A stretch of DNA of 64,000 nt from Butyrivibrio proteoclasticus B316. GTDB lineage: Bacteria > Bacillota > Clostridia > Lachnospirales > Lachnospiraceae. The stretch is from NCBI RefSeq assembly GCF_000145035.1, contig NC_014387.1, positions 1 through 64,000 on the forward strand. The letters run 5' to 3'. The notes under the pieces are model-generated. The model worked only from the letters and a program-made list of their open reading frames with translations, made no database searches and was not told where the DNA came from. A program made the position numbers and the translations under genes. Shown piece by piece: positions 13,848-21,269 of the stretch. Positions within the stretch are counted from its first letter, which is position 1. Each line of letters begins with the position of its first letter.

Positions 13848-14867
13848 TTACTTATTGCTAAGTTCAATAAGTTTGTTTAGCGTTTCTGTTGCTTTTCCTG
13901 AATCAATTATCTCTTTAGCAAGTTTAATTCCATCGGCCAATGAATCTGCCTTACCACCGATGTAAAGAGAAGCACCGGCATTCATAAGGACTGCATCACG
14001 CTTAGGTCCTCGCTCTTTTCCTGAGAGGATATCCCTTGTGATCTGAGCATTTTCTGAAGGCGTTCCTCCTACAAGCTCAGCCTTTGAACAAGTCTTAAAG
14101 CCAAAGTCCTCAGGACGTATTGTATATGACTTATACCATCCATCCTTGATCTCACATACAGAAGTTGGTGAACTCATTGAAATTTCATCAAGTTTATCCT
14201 GGCCATATACAACCATTCCTCTTTTTATTCCAAGGTTTATCAGAACCTGTGCAAGAGGAATTATGAGATAATCATCATAAACTCCAAGAAGCTGCATTGA
14301 AGGCTTTCCGGGATTTGTCAGTGGTCCAAGGATATTAAAAACTGTTCTGAAACCAAGCTCTTTTCTGATTGCACCTACGTACTTCATGGAAGTGTGATAT
14401 TTCTGTGCAAAGAAGAAGCACATTCCGACTTCATTTAGTAGCTCTACGCATTTTTCAGGACTCTGGTCAATATTTACTCCAAGAGCTTCGAGACAGTCTG
14501 CAGTTCCACATTTGGAAGAAGCTGCTCTGTTACCATGTTTGGCGACCTTCATTCCACCAGCTGCAGCGACAAGTGCTGAAGTAGTTGAAATATTAAAGCT
14601 CTGGGCATTATCTCCGCCTGTTCCAACAATCTCGAAAACATCCATGCCTGTTTCAACCTGAGTAGCGTGCTCTCTCATGGCTGTTGCGCAGCCTGCAATC
14701 TCATCTGTTGTCTCTGCTCTCGCACTCTTGGTAGAAAGTGCAGATAAAAAAGCTGCATTCTGAGTAGGAGTAGTTTCTCCACTCATGATCTCGTTCATTA
14801 CTGAGTAGGCTTCATCATAAGTGAGGTCTTCTTTGTTTACGATTTTTACAATAGCTTCTTTGATCAT
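13848..14867 (-). CDS. trpD: Anthranilate phosphoribosyltransferase
   Basis: TrpD transfers phosphoribosyl from PRPP to anthranilate. The PRPP-binding signature [18 protein letters not shown] and the [15 protein letters not shown] segment are present, with no fused TrpG glutaminase domain. The in-frame ATG at 14873 is only 3 bp from the AGGAG, whereas the ATG at 14867 has 9-bp spacing and matches the usual family start MIKEAI; 14867 is used (339 residues). It is the first gene after the tryptophan T-box. Neither trpE nor trpG is adjacent, so anthranilate must come from genes elsewhere. Confidence 0.95.
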
Positions 14868-14905
14868 GTTCATTCTCTCCTTTTGACTAATTGATTTGTA
14901 ATAAA

Positions 14906-14937
14906 AAAGCGTTCCGACTCATCTGTCAGAACGCTTT
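14906..14937 (-). terminator. Second hairpin terminator between the T-box terminator and trpD
   Basis: Read on the minus strand, a 9-bp stem AAAGCGTTC/GAACGCTTT is followed by a T-run. It lies 3' of the T-box terminator and about 38 bp before trpD. The loop holds TGACAGA, the exact complement of TCTGTCA in the 3' arm of the T-box terminator, so the two hairpins may compete. Confidence 0.7.
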
Positions 14938-14944
14938 ATGAAAT

Positions 14945-15258
14945 AAAAAAGTCCCTGACAGAAGTCTGTTCTGTCAAGGACGAATGTACAATTATACTAT
15001 CCGCGGTGCCACCTTGAATTCGTAGTAAACTACGCGCTTATGTGAGATACCGTTTCTATAAGAATCTTATAGACTTCATCATATCTCTGACTACTAACGG
15101 GAGTCTTCCGTTGCAGAATACTCTGTGCAAAAACACATTTGACTGCACCCTCGGCGGTCCATTTGAATATGTGTATCTTACCTGTTCTCAGCTGATCAGG
15201 CTCTCTGTGAAGGCATCATAGACGTTATCTCCGCTTCATTGGTTTAAAGTATTAAGTT
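14945..15258 (-). promoter_or_regulatory. Tryptophan T-box riboswitch (leader of trpDCFBA)
   Basis: Read on the minus strand, the conserved T-box AAGGTGGCACCGCGG lies at 15015-15001, with the UGGCACC bulge that pairs with the uncharged tRNA acceptor end. Stem I begins with GAAGCGGAGA, closed by CCGC, with TGG at 15161-15159 just before the closing arm. That is where a specifier codon belongs, so the leader should read tRNA-Trp. The antiterminator would pair CAAGG with CCTTG at the 5' arm of the terminator, a 12-bp stem (14951-14962 with 14970-14981) followed by six T. Low tryptophan should turn the operon on. Confidence 0.93.
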
Positions 15259-15265
15259 AGTAAAA

Positions 15266-15294
15266 ATAATACTGCTATAAAATTAGATTGTCAA
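15266..15294 (-). promoter_or_regulatory. Sigma-A promoter of the trp operon
   Basis: On the minus strand a perfect TTGACA (15294-15289), 17-bp spacer and TATTAT (15271-15266) place transcription start near 15259, just upstream of T-box stem I. Confidence 0.8.
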
Positions 15295-15428
15295 CAATAA
15301 ATTATTAATTACTCTCAGAATTTCATGATAATAATATAAAATATCTGAAAATAATGTTGACAATGAAATTTTATTGTGCAATCATCAACATATCAACTTT
15401 GCTACAGGTTGATAAATATTAAAGAAAG

Positions 15429-15602
15429 CGAGGTAAGGAATATGTTTAATCTTGTGGCGAGAAGAATTAAAGCGAATCATTTTTCAAAGACTTTACCTCG
15501 GGATATTATGTTCGGATAAGGCTATTTAATACTGCATCTGAATATATATTGTGACATGGTTTCCCCAGGTAAGTTTGTTGATAATTTACCTGGGGTTTTT
15601 TT
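15429..15602 (+). promoter_or_regulatory. Putative translation-dependent attenuator of the ABC exporter operon
   Basis: Four segments can pair in alternative ways. Segment 1 (15429-15438, containing the leader ribosome binding site) pairs with segment 2 (15491-15500) over 10 bp with one wobble. Segment 3 (15563-15572, CCCCAGGTAA) pairs perfectly with segment 4 (15586-15595), and seven T follow: an intrinsic terminator. Segment 2 extended to 15502 can instead pair with segment 3 (9 of 10 positions), forming an antiterminator. This is the classic attenuator layout, with a 25-codon ORF spanning segments 1 to 2. It resembles in principle the BmrB leader of Bacillus bmrCD. Confidence 0.7.
15442..15519 (+). 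CDS. Putative 25-residue leader peptide of the ABC exporter operon
   Basis: ATG at 15442 follows AGGTAAGGA and opens 25 codons ending TAA at 15519; the peptide begins MFNLVARRIKANH and is basic. It lies inside the attenuator: its ribosome binding site is in segment 1, and codons 17-20 lie in segment 2. It resembles no enzyme, and its value would be positional: a ribosome stalled early should free segment 2 to form the antiterminator. Inferred from layout; expression is not proven. Confidence 0.55.
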   Translation: MFNLVARRIKANHFSKTLPRDIMFG

Positions 15603-15703
15603 ATGCCTAATTAGGAAACCGGGCCCGTTTCTTAATTGCACAATACCCGAGGCTTGAGGAGTAACCAGAAACGAATCAATCTATTTCAAAAAATGGAGGA
15701 ACA

Positions 15704-17437
15704 ATGAATACACTTGGAAGTTATGTGCGAAAGCACTGGGCAACATATACAATGGCAACTGTTTTCATGCTGATTGCGATTGCCCTTGACATGATGTTCC
15801 CAAAAGTTACAGAACGAATAGTTAATGAAGTACTTGTAGGCAACGATTACACTTATTTTCCATATTTGCTCCTGGCGATAATACTGATAGGTATAGGCAG
15901 AAGTGTATTTGGATATTACAAGGAATTTACATTTGATAAAAACTGCATCACCATCGGAACCGAGATGAGAAAGGATCTCTTTGATCACATTCAGAGCCTG
16001 TCTCTAGATTATTTCGATGATTCCAGTACCGGTGAGCTTATGGCCAGGGTAAAAGATGACATCGACAAGATTTATCAGCTTGTTGGAATGGTGGCTATGC
16101 GAGGCATGGAGGTAACACTAAACTCTGTACTCATCATCTATTTCATGTTTTCTATAAACGTGCCACTTACTTTTTTACCTCTTACATTTATGATAATCTG
16201 CGGAGCAACAGCTATCATAATGGAGAAAAAGCTTGATAAGGTCTATGATGCGATCAGCGAAGAGAATGCAGAGATGACTACAACGGCTGAGGAAAATCTG
16301 GCCGGAGTCAGAACGGTTAAAGCTTTTGCCAGAGAAAACTATGAGATAAAGAAATTTTTTAAGCACAATAAAAAATACTATGATCTCAACATGGAGGAAG
16401 CAAGAGCTCTCATAAAATTCTATCCTGTATTTATGCTCGCAGGAACTCTTCTTCCTGTAGCTGTTGCAGTACTTGGAGGAATAGCTGTAATTAACGGCCA
16501 TATGAACCTTGGTAGTTTAACAGCGTTTATTATTTACACCAGAAACTGCACATGGCCTATGGAGGAACTTGGATGGATCACCAACGAGTTCTCAAGCTCT
16601 CTTGCATCTATGAAGAAGATTAAAAAGATATATGCAGAGCATTCGACACTTTCAGTAAATCCTGCTCCTGTTCATGTCAATGACGTTAAGGGAGAGATTG
16701 AATTTGAAAATGTTAGCCTCGAACTTGGAGGAAAAGAGGTTCTGTCAGATATAAGCTTTTCTTTAAAAGCAGGAAAAACGCTTGGAATCATGGGACAGAC
16801 AGGTTCAGGAAAGTCAACTATCATAAATCTGATACAGCGTTTCTATGATCCTACAGGCGGAAGCATCAAGCTTGATGGTACAGAAATAAGGGATATGGAG
16901 CTTGAGCAGGTAAGAAGTGCGACAGCTGTTGTTATGCAGGATGTATTTCTTTTCTCTGACACAATTGAAGAAAATATCCGTATGGGCAGAAAAGATGATA
17001 TGACGATGGATGAAATAAAGAGTGCAGCCAAGATGGCAAAGGCATCTGATTTCATTGAAAAGCTGGAAGATTCCTACGAAACCGTAATAGGTGAAAGAGG
17101 TGTAGGTTTATCCGGTGGTCAGAAGCAGAGAATCAGCATTGCAAGGGCTATATCTAAGAATGCACCTATACTTATTCTTGATGATTCTACATCTGCACTT
17201 GATATGGAAACTGAATCTGAGATTCAGAAGACACTTGATGAAATAAAGAGTACAACTCGTGTTATCGTCGCTCACAGAATTTCTGCAGTTAGGAATGCAG
17301 ATGAGATCATCTATCTGCAGGATGGAAAAATTGCGGAGCGCGGTACACATGAGCAGCTCCTTAAGAAAAAGGGACTATACTATGAGACTTATATAGCTCA
17401 GTACGGAGTCCCAATGGAAATGGAGGTGAGTGCGTAA
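15704..17437 (+). CDS. Heterodimeric multidrug-type ABC exporter, subunit with degenerate ATP site
   Basis: A 577-residue half-transporter: six membrane segments (about residues 15-310) fused to an ATP-binding domain. Walker A GQTGSGKST is near 365, the signature LSGGQKQR near 469, and Walker B ILILDDSTSALD near 490. The residue after the Walker B aspartate is Asp instead of the catalytic Glu, as in BmrC and TM287, the degenerate-site partners of heterodimeric exporters. Its stop overlaps the next gene's start as TAATG, so the two subunits are coupled. The substrate cannot be told from sequence; drug or lipid export is likely. The upstream attenuator suggests induction by translation inhibitors. 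Confidence 0.9.
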   Translation: MNTLGSYVRKHWATYTMATVFMLIAIALDMMFPKVTERIVNEVLVGNDYTYFPYLLLAIILIGIGRSVFGYYKEFTFDKNCITIGTEMRKDLFDHIQSLSLDYFDDSSTGELMARVKDDIDKIYQLVGMVAMRGMEVTLNSVLIIYFMFSINVPLTFLPLTFMIICGATAIIMEKKLDKVYDAISEENAEMTTTAEENLAGVRTVKAFARENYEIKKFFKHNKKYYDLNMEEARALIKFYPVFMLAGTLLPVAVAVLGGIAVINGHMNLGSLTAFIIYTRNCTWPMEELGWITNEFSSSLASMKKIKKIYAEHSTLSVNPAPVHVNDVKGEIEFENVSLELGGKEVLSDISFSLKAGKTLGIMGQTGSGKSTIINLIQRFYDPTGGSIKLDGTEIRDMELEQVRSATAVVMQDVFLFSDTIEENIRMGRKDDMTMDEIKSAAKMAKASDFIEKLEDSYETVIGERGVGLSGGQKQRISIARAISKNAPILILDDSTSALDMETESEIQKTLDEIKSTTRVIVAHRISAVRNADEIIYLQDGKIAERGTHEQLLKKKGLYYETYIAQYGVPMEMEVSA

Positions 17438-19218
17438 TGGCAGCTAACTCATTTCGTGAAGATGAGCAAATGTCCAATACGGACCGAAAAAAGATATTTG
17501 TCAGAATGATCAGATATCTGAGACCTCATATTGCAGAAATAATCCCGGTTTTTATCTCTTTGATAGTTACCGTAGGAATAAGCCTTATAAGCCCGCTTCT
17601 CATAGAATATGCTATAGACGTACATGTGGCTAATAAGAATATCCGAGGTCTTATAACAATCGCTACTATCATAGTAGCACTTGGCGTTATATACATTCTT
17701 TTTGTTAAGCTCAGAATGTATATGATGAACAAGGTTGCAAATAAAGTCCTGCTAGATATCAGGCAGGAGCTGTATGAGCACATCCAGACTTTGTCATTTA
17801 CATTTTTTGACAACAGGCCGACAGGTAAGATCCTGGCCCGCATAATAGGTGATGTTAACTCCATGAAAGATGTAATGGCCAATACTATTACAAACCTTAT
17901 TCCGAACTTTATTACGGTATTTGGTGTAGTTATCATTATGTTGATAAAAGACTGGAAGCTTGCTCTTGGATGCTTTGCTTCGCTGCCAATTATGGTTGTC
18001 AGCATATTCTGGATCCGTAATGTCAATCATAAGAGATGGCAGGATGTTCGTAAAAAAGCATCAAACATGAATGCCTATGTTCATGAGGATATTGCTGGAA
18101 TATCGGTAGTTCAGAGTTTTCATGCGGAAAAAGAGACCAAGACAACCTTTAGAGAACTTGCTAATGCTCATAGGGATGCCTATATTTCAGCCTGTAGAGC
18201 AGCTGATCTTTTTGGTCCTTCAATAGACATGAGCTGGGCTATCAGCAGTATGATCCTGTATCTTGTTGCCATAAGACTACTTGGTTATACAGCAGCATCT
18301 GTTGGTCTTATTACTGCTTTTGCAAGCTATTCGAGTATGTTCTGGAGTCCTATAATGGGACTTTCCAACTACTATAACCAGCTGATAACCAATATTACTG
18401 CTGCAGAAAGAGTCTTTGATATCCTTGATACAGAGGCTGAGATTGTAGATAAAGAAGGTGCTAAGGAACTTCCTGAAATAAGTGGAAGTGTTTCTTTTGA
18501 AAATGTAGGATTCACCTACGATGAGGGAACCGAAACTCAGACAAGAGTTCTTGAGAATGTTAACTTTGATGTTAAACCGGGTGAGACAATTGCCCTTGTT
18601 GGTCCAACTGGAGCTGGCAAGACAACAATTGTTAATCTCATCAGCAGATTCTATGATATCCAGAAAGGTAAGATACTGGTTGATGGCTATGACCTGACTG
18701 ACGTCACAATAAACAGTCTTCGTAAGCAGATGGGTATCATGACTCAGGATAACTTTATTTTCCACGGAACTGTCCGTGAGAACATAATGTACGGAAATCT
18801 TGATGCTACTGAAGAAGAGATGATCGCAGCTGCCAAGGCAGTTAACGCCCATGATTTCATTATGAATCTGGAGAACGGCTATGATACTGAGTTAAAAGAG
18901 AGAGGCGCAGGCCTTTCTATTGGTCAGAGACAGCTCCTTGCCTTTGCGAGAACTATGATTTCAATGCCCAAGATACTCATTCTTGATGAGGCTACAAGTA
19001 GCATAGATACACACACAGAGATGCTGGTTCAGAAAGGAATTCAGGCACTTTTAAAGGGAAGAACAAGCTTTGTTATAGCTCATCGTCTGTCTACAATCAA
19101 GAATGCTGACCGTATATTTGTTATTAACGGTGGCGGTATAATGGAAGCAGGCAATCACGACCAGCTTATGGCCAGAAGAGGTGCTTATTATCAGCTTTAT
19201 CAGGCACAATTTGCATAA
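17437..19218 (+). CDS. Heterodimeric multidrug-type ABC exporter, catalytic subunit
   Basis: A 593-residue half-transporter with six membrane segments (about 35-330) and an ATP-binding domain: Walker A GPTGAGKTT near 389, Walker B ILILDEATSSID with the canonical catalytic Glu, and H-loop VIAHRLST. Its signature is LSIGQ rather than LSGGQ. In heterodimers the degenerate site is built from the partner's Walker motifs plus this subunit's altered signature, so the two deviations fall in the same composite site. This is the BmrD/TM288-like partner. A hairpin terminator follows. Confidence 0.92.
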   Translation: MAANSFREDEQMSNTDRKKIFVRMIRYLRPHIAEIIPVFISLIVTVGISLISPLLIEYAIDVHVANKNIRGLITIATIIVALGVIYILFVKLRMYMMNKVANKVLLDIRQELYEHIQTLSFTFFDNRPTGKILARIIGDVNSMKDVMANTITNLIPNFITVFGVVIIMLIKDWKLALGCFASLPIMVVSIFWIRNVNHKRWQDVRKKASNMNAYVHEDIAGISVVQSFHAEKETKTTFRELANAHRDAYISACRAADLFGPSIDMSWAISSMILYLVAIRLLGYTAASVGLITAFASYSSMFWSPIMGLSNYYNQLITNITAAERVFDILDTEAEIVDKEGAKELPEISGSVSFENVGFTYDEGTETQTRVLENVNFDVKPGETIALVGPTGAGKTTIVNLISRFYDIQKGKILVDGYDLTDVTINSLRKQMGIMTQDNFIFHGTVRENIMYGNLDATEEEMIAAAKAVNAHDFIMNLENGYDTELKERGAGLSIGQRQLLAFARTMISMPKILILDEATSSIDTHTEMLVQKGIQALLKGRTSFVIAHRLSTIKNADRIFVINGGGIMEAGNHDQLMARRGAYYQLYQAQFA

Positions 19219-19260
19219 AATCAATATGGTCCGGGAGGCAATGATCCCGGACCTTGATTT
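19218..19260 (+). terminator. Terminator after the ABC exporter
   Basis: GGTCCGGGA (19228-19236) pairs perfectly with TCCCGGACC (19245-19253); flanking AAATCAA and TTGATTT extend the stem past a 3-nt bulge. The T-rich tail is weak. Confidence 0.65.
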
Positions 19261-19296
19261 GAGCAATTAAAGTGAGAACAATGGGGATTTGAAATA

Positions 19297-20289
19297 ATGG
19301 ATAATCTGATATTTAGTCTTAATGCGACGTTACCGATTTTTCTTTTGATGGTGCTTGGATATATCTTTAATAAAATTCATATAATAGACGAAAAAGCAGC
19401 AACATGGATGAATAAGTTTGTCTTTAAGATTGCGCTACCGGTTCTTTTGTTTGAAGATCTTGCGAAGCAGGATTTTGCAGGGAGCTGGAATGGCAGATTT
19501 GTCATATTCTGCTTTTGCGTAACGCTTTGCAGTATTCTGCTGATAACAGCAATATCAAGACTTATCATTAGTAACAAAGTTGAAAGAGGTGAATTCATTC
19601 AGGGTTCATACCGCAGTAGTGCAGCTCTTTTGGGAATAGCTTTTATCCATAACATATACGGAAGCGGAAGCAGTGGAATGGCACCACTTATGATAATTGG
19701 AAGCGTTCCTCTTTATAACATTTTTGCAGTGATCATTTTGATGACTACAGCACCCAAGTCTGTAGTTATGGGAAGATACACCAGTGAGAGCGATAACTCT
19801 GACCAGGTAAGAAAAGAGCTGATAATAAAGACACTTATCGGAATAGTCAAAAATCCCATTCTTATTGGAATATTCATAGGGCTTTTCTGGTCTTTGTTTA
19901 AGATACCGATGCCAAAGATACTTGGATCAATGGTGTCAAGTATTGGAGGACTATCAACTCCCCTTGGGCTTATGGCTATGGGAGCAACCTTTGATTATTC
20001 CAAGGCGATAAATAAAATTAAGCCCACATTACTTGCAAGTTTCATAAAACTCTTTGCGCTTGTAGGACTGTTTATGCCATTTGCAGTTCTTATGGGCTTT
20101 AGAAATGAGCAGATCATAGCTCTACTTGTAATGCTTGGATCAGCGACCACTGTTTCAAGCTTTGTAATGGCCAAAAACATGGGACATGAAGGAACTCTCA
20201 GTAGCAGTATTGTAATGATGACGACTTTTGGATGTTCCTTCTCTTTAACACTATGGCTATTTGTATTAAAAACACTGTCACTAATCTGA
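19297..20289 (+). CDS. AEC-family permease (auxin efflux carrier / malate permease type)
   Basis: A 330-residue integral membrane protein with about ten hydrophobic segments in two halves, starting DNLIFSLNATLPIFLLMVLGYIFNK, the usual N terminus of bacterial AEC proteins. The second half has the family's GLSTPLGLMAMGATFDYSKA and the late LLVMLGSATTVSSFVMAKNMG segment. Family members export or import organic acids such as malate; substrate unknown here. It stands alone between terminators, and the last codons form part of its own terminator stem. Confidence 0.87.
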   Translation: MDNLIFSLNATLPIFLLMVLGYIFNKIHIIDEKAATWMNKFVFKIALPVLLFEDLAKQDFAGSWNGRFVIFCFCVTLCSILLITAISRLIISNKVERGEFIQGSYRSSAALLGIAFIHNIYGSGSSGMAPLMIIGSVPLYNIFAVIILMTTAPKSVVMGRYTSESDNSDQVRKELIIKTLIGIVKNPILIGIFIGLFWSLFKIPMPKILGSMVSSIGGLSTPLGLMAMGATFDYSKAINKIKPTLLASFIKLFALVGLFMPFAVLMGFRNEQIIALLVMLGSATTVSSFVMAKNMGHEGTLSSSIVMMTTFGCSFSLTLWLFVLKTLSLI

Positions 20290-20312
20290 AGAGGATTAGC
20301 GGCAGTGTTTTT
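20268..20312 (+). terminator. Terminator overlapping the end of the AEC permease gene
   Basis: AAAAACACTGTCACTAATC pairs with GATTAGCGGCAGTGTTTTT with one mismatch and one wobble; the stop codon lies in the loop. A- and T-runs on the two sides make it usable on either strand. Confidence 0.8.
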
Positions 20313-20336
20313 GTACTTGATATAAGATTATTCTGA

Positions 20337-21269
20337 TCAGAATTCAAGCTGAGATAAAAAGCTATCTATCTTTGCCCAATAATTTACCGGGTCTCTTACA
20401 ACTCCCTCAATATGACCTGCACCGAGGATCATACAGTACTGCTTGGGACATTTGGCAGCCTCGTATAATCTTGAGCACATATGAGGATCTATGAAAGTAT
20501 CATCATCTCCATGCATGAAAAGAGTTGGAGTAGATGAATTCTTAACTGCTTCAATAGGATTAACCTCGTTAATATCATATCCTGCTCTTAAATATATCAT
20601 CACTCTTGCCAGGAAAAGAGCTATCGGAACAGGAACAAAAGAGCCTTTGAAGGACTTATAGGTGTGAGCAAACTGTTCGCGAAGTGTAGCATAAGCACTG
20701 TCTGCTATTGCTGCCTTAACGTTTCTTGGAAGATGCTCTCCTGTTGTCATAAGAGTTGTTGCTGATCCCATGGACATGCCATGAAGGATTATGCGGGCCT
20801 CGGGATCTTTTTTGATGATATAGTTGATCCATTCAATAATATCAAGTCTGTCATCATATCCATATCCGATATAATCACCTTCGCTCTTACCAAATCCTCT
20901 AAGGTCAGGAAGAAGGCAGTTTATACCTTTTTCGAGGTAATGTCTGGCATAGATGCCGTTAGATTCGTGATTGTCCCAGATACCATGGATTATTATTGCA
21001 TATCTGTGACTGGATTCCTTACATGGGATATAAGAAGCGTGAAGCTTTAACTTGTCTATGGAATCTATGAACAAGTCCTGTCTGTCAGGATGATTTCTGA
21101 CAAATTTTCTGCCTTCTGTTATAGCAGGATCAAAATCCCTGTTATCGTCTGCGTCTGTGTGCTGCTTGGGAACAGTAGAAATCTTGTAGATATAATTGCT
21201 AAAGGCAAATATTCCTCCAAAAACTGAAGAAAAAATACCAAGTTTAACCAGTGTATTGTTTTTACTCAT
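20337..21269 (-). CDS. Membrane-anchored alpha/beta hydrolase
   Basis: A 310-residue protein with one N-terminal membrane segment (about residues 8-27) followed by an alpha/beta-hydrolase domain. The oxyanion region HGIWDNHESN, nucleophile elbow GMSMG, acidic HGDDDTFIDP and final histidine GAGHIEGV give the Ser-Asp-His triad in order. The PDLRGFGKSEGD segment is typical of the BAAT/acyl-CoA-thioesterase-like and YqkD-like hydrolases. The ATG at 21269, 6 bp after GGAG, is preferred to an in-frame TTG at 21281. Substrate unknown; the domain probably faces outward. Confidence 0.85.
   Translation of the reverse strand: MSKNNTLVKLGIFSSVFGGIFAFSNYIYKISTVPKQHTDADDNRDFDPAITEGRKFVRNHPDRQDLFIDSIDKLKLHASYIPCKESSHRYAIIIHGIWDNHESNGIYARHYLEKGINCLLPDLRGFGKSEGDYIGYGYDDRLDIIEWINYIIKKDPEARIILHGMSMGSATTLMTTGEHLPRNVKAAIADSAYATLREQFAHTYKSFKGSFVPVPIALFLARVMIYLRAGYDINEVNPIEAVKNSSTPTLFMHGDDDTFIDPHMCSRLYEAAKCPKQYCMILGAGHIEGVVRDPVNYWAKIDSFLSQLEF

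Follow-up and report, generated by a model that had tools for sequence, protein, structure and literature searches.

The closest described systems are leaders in which a small upstream ORF (uORF) precedes the controlled gene; the comparisons made here draw on passages of the papers cited. They include: the bmrB leader of the BmrC/BmrD exporter in B. subtilis, with a leader ORF and alternative hairpins ahead of an ABC exporter pair, in which translation is required and lincomycin induces (PMC4191407); the vmlR leader of an ABC-F gene in B. subtilis, which combines a tiny ORF with an anti-antiterminator, an antiterminator and a terminator, and in which cognate drugs stall initiating ribosomes and a hairpin after the terminator hides the Shine-Dalgarno (SD) sequence (PMC9226507); the cplR leader of Clostridioides difficile, with a short uORF and premature termination, which couples transcription attenuation with translation attenuation (PMC10201436); the hflXr/rli80 leader of Listeria, with a small ORF and an alternative terminator before a ribosome-acting HflX homologue (PMC6310831); and the toiL uORF of E. 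coli, in which a single uORF senses several drug classes and tetracycline stalls ribosomes at the start codon (PMC12121999). Start codons are also the likely sites of ribosome arrest by the drugs that the cplR, vmlR and vga(A) uORFs sense (PMC12121999).

Here we report a leader in the window (the whole 64,000-nucleotide stretch of DNA analysed; its source genome comprises 4.40 Mb in 4 contigs, and the named relatives nearest to it in exporter sequence are Butyrivibrio). It is probably a ribosome-mediated transcription attenuator that is turned on when ribosomes arrest early in the leader. An earlier note on this DNA had proposed an antibiotic-sensing attenuator before a heterodimeric ABC exporter, and, as far as anatomy, conservation and context go, that interpretation is supported by the sequence comparisons given below.

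Anatomy of the leader and the exporter operon

The leader lies between the ABC operon and a divergent trp operon on the minus strand, of which trpD, trpC and trpA were identified. The trp operon is preceded by a T-box leader (window 14973-15248, minus strand; 83.3 bits, E 2e-18, Rfam gathering score 93). A weak match to the trpB ncRNA motif (14897-14977, minus strand; 29.6 bits, cut-off 59) covers two hairpins resembling terminators, situated between the T-box and trpD. The features of the ABC side are:

15357..15385, plus strand: probable promoter, TTGACA-17 nt-AATCAT, 10/12 matches, with TG ahead of the second hexamer
15392..15413, plus strand: 5' hairpin, ATCAAC-(TTTGCTACAG)-GTTGAT, by the expected transcript start; from covariation and partner swaps
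15429..15438, plus strand: strand 1 (CGAGGTAAGG), SD of the leader ORF and 5' strand of the anti-antiterminator; from sequence, pairing and covariation
15442..15519, plus strand: leader ORF of 25 aa, ATG at 15442, stop codon TAA at 15517-15519, peptide MFNLVARRIKANHFSKTLPRDIMFG
15454..15460, plus strand: codons 5-7, GTGGCGA, complement of the 5' hairpin loop 15399-15405 (possible pseudoknot); from pairing in the alignment
15491..15502, plus strand: strand 2, partner of strand 1 (off) or strand 3 (on); from pairing, covariation, swaps and folding
15511..15542, plus strand: hairpin between strands 2 and 3, TTCGGAT/ATCTGAA; from paired cells in the alignment
15563..15602, plus strand: intrinsic terminator, with strand 3 at 15563-15575, strand 4 at 15583-15595 and a T tract at 15596-15602; from a terminator scan and covariation
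15646..15652, plus strand: post-terminator CCCGAGG, perfect complement of 15496-15502 in strand 2; from a shuffle test
15704..17437, plus strand: ABC exporter subunit 1, LSGGQ, Walker B LILDD (degenerate catalytic position)
17437..19218, plus strand: ABC exporter subunit 2, LSIGQ, Walker B LILDE

The earlier note had placed a 25-codon leader ORF with its SD in strand 1 at 15442-15519, and direct reading finds these coordinates exact. The pairing that it described between the SD segment and the first part of strand 2 (1:2) joins 15429-15438 to 15491-15500 (CTTTACCTCG) with 10/10 pairs, one of them G-U. Its alternative, in which the segment extended to 15502 pairs with the 5' arm of the terminator (2:3), joins 15493-15502 to 15563-15572 with 9/10 pairs and one C-C mismatch. 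The terminator (3:4) has the 10 perfect pairs and the seven T (15596-15602) that had been reported, and 13 pairs when the loop-side pairs are counted. The 5' hairpin, the loop complement in codons 5-7, the hairpin between strands 2 and 3 and the post-terminator strand are additional to that description.

The fold of 15395-15605 is more stable than its shuffles (z = -3.3; none of 200 equally stable), and 11 terminator-like sites occur in 14000-20500 as against 3.5 expected from shuffles. In 20/20 Butyrivibrio-type leaders TTGACA lies 72-75 nt 5' of the GAGG of strand 1; hence, with this spacing fixed, the 5' hairpin is likely to begin approximately at the transcript start.

The exporter consists of two adjacent half-transporters, and subunit 1 has an aspartate in place of the expected catalytic glutamate in its Walker B motif. 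One degenerate ATP site is the pattern of heterodimeric exporters; these motifs, including the LSIGQ of subunit 2, confirm that the exporter is of this type, as had been claimed. Among solved structures, the best 60 of 590 matches of subunit 1 and the best 60 of 575 of subunit 2 are led by P-glycoprotein types, followed by TM287/288. YheH (BmrD) scores under TM288, Sav1866 and 5mkk/6raf for subunit 2 among the matches listed, and BmrC does not appear among the best 60 of 590 for subunit 1. Judged by sequence score, without a tree, the closest solved relatives are not BmrC and BmrD, which is how orthology with BmrCD would have been recognized.

Conservation and covariation of the strands

With subunit 1 as query, 29 loci were recovered from the genome contigs. 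Thirteen of these are close (L018-L030, 73-95% identity), and the other 16 (L031-L046, at most 30% identity) were left out. The SD, the ORF, strand 2 and the terminator are present in the same order in all 13 close loci, evidence that weighs more than the shuffle comparisons above; the competing 1:2, 2:3 and 3:4 series of the earlier note is thus a conserved device, and the comparison with relatives that it had proposed finds the leader ORF kept and covariation present. Strand 2 is read as LPR in 11/13, and in L025 and L026 the same stretch is translated as FTSG. Since the peptides differ, and these two loci use another frame over strand 2, it is the RNA rather than the peptide that is kept. 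Consistent with this, the entropies of codon positions 1-3 on the 5' side of strand 2 give no sign of selection on the peptide in either 18 Butyrivibrio-type leaders (1.38, 1.37, 1.16) or 33 class-2 leaders (0.90, 1.05, 0.86). The class-2 peptides share a C-terminal pattern, EY..M.TSV..F. ACCTC and the stop codon are separated by exactly 18 nt in 28/33 class-2 leaders and by 22 nt in 14/20 Butyrivibrio-type leaders; at these spacings a terminating ribosome would occupy strand 2 or reach its edge.

Compensatory change was assessed in three alignments: A1, of 14 sequences; A2, of 31 leaders, whose 17 members beyond the window and its 13 orthologues were found either by an inverted-repeat script and inspection or by a pattern on GAGGTAA/TACCTC; and A3, of 28 more diverse leaders. 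With shuffle tests that do not remove relatedness, the terminator has two-sided changes in 7/10 pairs and 13 cells in A1 (shuffles as high 0/500). The 1:2 pairing has 17 two-sided cells in A2 (0/500), and these fall on 3 pairs, which is no excess over shuffles (442/500). The invariant 1:2 core of A2 is partly an artefact of selection, because members were found through GAGGTAA/TACCTC; the varying end pairs are exempt from it. In A3, 1:2 has 18 two-sided cells (0/500) across 5/10 pairs (5/500), and leader L134 replaces a U-A pair of the core with C-G.

The 2:3 pairing is formed in 96.0% of the cells of A1, as against 18-73% for slid versions. In these 14 close sequences it is nearly invariant, with 1 two-sided cell (34/500 shuffles as high); its support hence lies in complementarity and partner swaps and not in compensatory changes. 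The swaps were made over 79 leaders collected by script, which are distinct in sequence but not independent, so that the tests do not remove relatedness: own partners pair better than swapped ones both for 2:3 (-9.6 versus -8.3 kcal/mol) and for 1:2 (-10.9 versus -10.2 kcal/mol), with 0/200 swaps as good in each case. In the window, strand 2 has a better partner in its own terminator than in any arm of a control set of 63 other terminators from the collected loci, from which leader arms were removed by string match, perhaps incompletely. Across the 79 leaders the same test leaves 5% or fewer of the arms pairing equally well in 28, with a median of 9.5%; in the 12 worst leaders 22-71% of the arms are as good, and at least L014, L076 and L143 among these have miscalled terminators.

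Two of the additional features were also assessed. The hairpin between strands 2 and 3 is paired in 92.9% of cells versus 16-60% when slid, and its covariation is not above that of shuffles (57/500). The post-terminator CCCGAGG beats 95% of shuffles in 15 of the 19 assessable Butyrivibrio-type leaders (L020, the twentieth, could not be assessed); perhaps it keeps strand 2 from other partners in the readthrough RNA.

Recurrence of the device in Lachnospiraceae

Relatives of subunit 1 at E up to 1e-150 occur in 71 of the 397 family genomes. Leaving the window aside, we took the 29 best of these loci: at E up to 0.01, model R1 places the device upstream of the gene, on its coding strand, in 22, comprising 10 independent loci and 12 that either belong to the training set or coincide with a member of it; at that threshold model R2 detects it in 18 of the same 29. 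The seven loci lacking an R1 match at E up to 0.01 are L058, L059, L063, L065, L066, L077 and L081; L065 stops at a contig edge, and L066 has the device by inspection and script. A pattern search returned 15 places in 14/397 genomes, with none for the reversed-pattern control. One of the 15 (L093), the start of a longer coding frame, was dropped as a chance hit.

At E up to 0.05, R1 matches 48/397 family genomes, or 38 after removal of ten chance single matches. These ten (L140, L151, L152 and L154-L160, all with E of at least 0.001, out of 30 loci opened) are ordinary gene starts without the device. In the genus, R1 at E up to 0.01 matches 51/79 genomes at 63 places, of which 30 (including the window) as well as G003:C13, G065:C18, G067:C10 and G027:C13 were inspected and 29 were not. 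R2 matches 29/255 family genomes and, across the class, 11/391, with all strong matches within Lachnospiraceae. Four R2 matches outside the family (L204-L207, 32-34 bits), none of them reported by the leader script, are likely chance and were discarded. The genome of the window has one device place by R1/R2, under strict filters that may lose weak places.

The genes downstream of the 79 leaders, as labelled from sequence, are: ABC exporters in 37 and, by inspection, in a further 3 (L020, L072, L074); the ribosome GTPase RsgA in 16; GNAT-RsgA in 11; unassigned genes in 3; and others in 9 (L095, L096, L132, L145, L185, L188, L189, L208 and L226), of which L145 has a small ORF followed by an RsgA gene. 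The GNAT-RsgA label rests on a shared motif, with Pfam confirmation in L139; the probable fusions, all behind class-2 leaders, are those of L123, L139, L142, L144, L187, L190, L192, L193, L195, L199 and L212.

Pfam searches with nine proteins recovered RsgA in L186 and L221, GNAT plus RsgA in L139, GNAT in L185, a P-loop AAA domain in L188, an ABC ATPase in L189 and L132, a hydrolase-like N-domain in L208, and no match in L095. By NCBIfam, L186 is RsgA and L189 is a ribosomal protection-like ABC-F protein (NF000355, 414.5 bits, cut-off 380), whose ORF runs past the end of the locus; L188 and L185 have no NCBIfam match. Both genomes tested for it (G003 and G120) have two strong RsgA genes each, one of them with a leader, and the window genome has a single RsgA gene above cut-off (L161), with no leader in the 900 nt read. 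This recurrence strengthens the antibiotic link, since an ABC-F ribosomal-protection gene and genes for RsgA-type ribosome GTPases stand behind the same device.

A few further observations concern these loci. Class-2 loci (e.g. L185-L187, L190, L193, L194) have a GGTCTCCATAC-like element 3' of the terminator that is complementary to the SD of the main gene. The pairing of this GGTCTCC element with the main-gene SD beats 95% of shuffles in 13/30 loci, which suggests an added translational control of the main gene; we note this without claiming it. A THF riboswitch lies downstream of the leader-linked RsgA gene at L130:1822-1924. At 560 nt past the terminator, the RqcH-like gene that follows L096/L129 was not taken as a target.

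Proposed mechanism and competing explanations

We propose that transcription starts near 15392 and that translation of the leader ORF begins from strand 1. With the ribosome absent or already past, strand 1 would pair with strand 2, and a ribosome finishing at the stop codon would cover part of strand 2; in both cases strand 3 would be free to pair with strand 4, leading to termination at about 15602. If instead a ribosome were arrested on the start codon or within the first few codons, it would cover strand 1 and leave strand 2 free to capture strand 3 during transcription, whereupon the terminator would fail and the heterodimeric exporter would be made. The decision would be kinetic, in that 1:2 would form ahead of the synthesis of strand 3 unless strand 1 is occupied.

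This order of events was compared with folds of the window leader in which ribosome footprints, with sizes from general knowledge, were masked. In the complete free RNA the model forms 1:2 (0.89-0.99) and 3:4 (0.95-1.0). With the start region masked and strand 4 absent, seven of nine 2:3 pairs reach 0.97-1.0 and the other two 0.67 and 0.35. Masking the stop region excludes the outer three 2:3 pairs and leaves the rest at 0.24-0.68, with 1:2 at about 0.3. In the presence of all four strands, masking the start region still lets 3:4 win (0.98-1.0), and with strand 1 left out 3:4 is better than 2:3 by 9.2 kcal/mol; hence, the on state must be kinetic, since 3:4 beats 2:3 once strand 4 is present. 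As long as strand 4 is absent, 2:3 also prevails when the ribosome stands at codon 5 or 8 and when no ribosome is present (1:2 only 0.03), so that the off default would depend on 1:2 forming first. The fold model alone does not single out early arrest. Given that the peptide is not conserved, the likely inducers would be inhibitors that act with little sequence preference and arrest ribosomes at initiation or very soon after.

A different signal could act through the same attenuator: a general slow-down of translation, from shortage of charged tRNA, poor ribosome supply or cold, with the exporter belonging to a ribosome-stress set. The non-conserved peptide, the device ahead of RsgA ribosome GTPases and the acceptance by the fold model of 2:3 with the ribosome at codon 5 or 8 would all suit such a signal. 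However, the device also precedes the ABC-F ribosomal-protection gene and a multidrug-type heterodimeric pump, and covering strand 1 so as to free strand 2 needs arrest near the start codon; we regard this alternative as possible but rather unlikely.

A riboswitch, in which the 5' hairpin and its loop pairing form a ligand-binding aptamer and the ORF is incidental, would account for the covariation of the hairpin and the conservation of its loop. There are 16 distinct 5' arms in 20 leaders, and arm pairs are formed at 98% versus 53% when swapped (0/500), in a comparison where arms were picked by best pairing, a bias toward own pairs; in L182 just 4/6 pairs form. All sightings of the hairpin, however, come from Butyrivibrio/Agathobacter-type leaders, the group in which a systematic scan was made, whereas the SD, the ORF and strands 1-4 persist elsewhere. 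Furthermore, Rfam gives no match at gathering score on any leader, in the window or at the 13 loci; at E up to 1 the window leader matches only NsiR1, on the terminator, with 19.3 bits (cut-off 39). A riboswitch is accordingly an improbable account of the leader.

Still less probable is an attenuator in which scarcity of one particular amino acid stalls the leader ribosome, as the divergent trp operon with its T-box might hint. No run of three identical residues occurs in the window leader or in the 13 orthologous leaders, and the one conspicuous feature ahead of strand 2 is V-A (12 each of up to 18; T is next to strand 2), which fits pairing with the 5' loop. The pairing of this loop with codons 5-7 is formed in 90.8% of cells with 3 two-sided cells (shuffles as high 1/500); of the slid controls, that at +3 likewise has 3 two-sided cells and that at -3 is 78.5% paired. 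Support for the loop pairing is moderate; it could explain the kept V-A codons.

Finally, simple inverted repeats are frequent in AT-rich intergenic DNA, but coincidental complementarity within an otherwise ordinary upstream terminator and small gene is a negligible prospect given the device in 13/13 orthologous loci, the distant family members found by profile, the covariation and the reversed-pattern control of 0 in 397 genomes.

Comparison with known systems

Returning to the early-arrest attenuator, we tentatively suggest, with somewhat less than even confidence, that it belongs to an undescribed translation-stress module found throughout Lachnospiraceae: a peptide-independent sensor of early arrest, using its own SD as the anti-antiterminator strand, which would control an exporter, an ABC-F protein and a second, inducible RsgA, either alone or fused to GNAT. 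If so, one reusable RNA sensor of ribosome arrest would be common to gut and rumen Lachnospiraceae and would span export, ribosome protection and a paralogous ribosome GTPase. The paralogous RsgA would then be an unrecognized factor against drug-blocked ribosomes, with a testable reason for the second RsgA of some Lachnospiraceae genomes, and the inducible ribosome-stress genes of the family could be listed from sequence. We found no prior description of the device in the literature searched (among the matches listed, with subscription journals mostly outside its reach), nor in PMC8632094 and PMC2965389.

The known leaders differ from that of the window in several respects, as far as the passages covered describe them. 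In vmlR the uORF has three codons and lies in a bulge with its SD single-stranded, whereas here the SD is itself the anti-antiterminator strand and the ORF has 25 codons with strand 2 within its 3' part (PMC9226507). The bmrB ORF encodes 53 aa and contains the terminator (PMC4191407), which in the window lies 43 nt past the stop codon. In cplR the uORF encodes MR[I/M] and the controlled gene is an ABC-F gene; a four-strand series was not found in the passages covered (PMC10201436). In hflXr/rli80 the 14-aa peptide has an RLR motif (PMC6310831), whereas this Arg-Leu-Arg macrolide arrest motif is absent from the window leader peptide and from the 13 orthologous peptides. The toiL uORF acts on translation and Rho termination (PMC12121999), in contrast to the intrinsic terminator here. 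The geometry of the window strands suggests start-codon arrest of the kind attributed to cplR, vmlR and vga(A). By analogy, the logic of the window leader is that of vmlR, bmrB and cplR; what is distinct is the use of its own SD as strand 1, the placement of strand 2 in the last leader codons, a terminator past the stop codon, and the service of unrelated genes by the same device.
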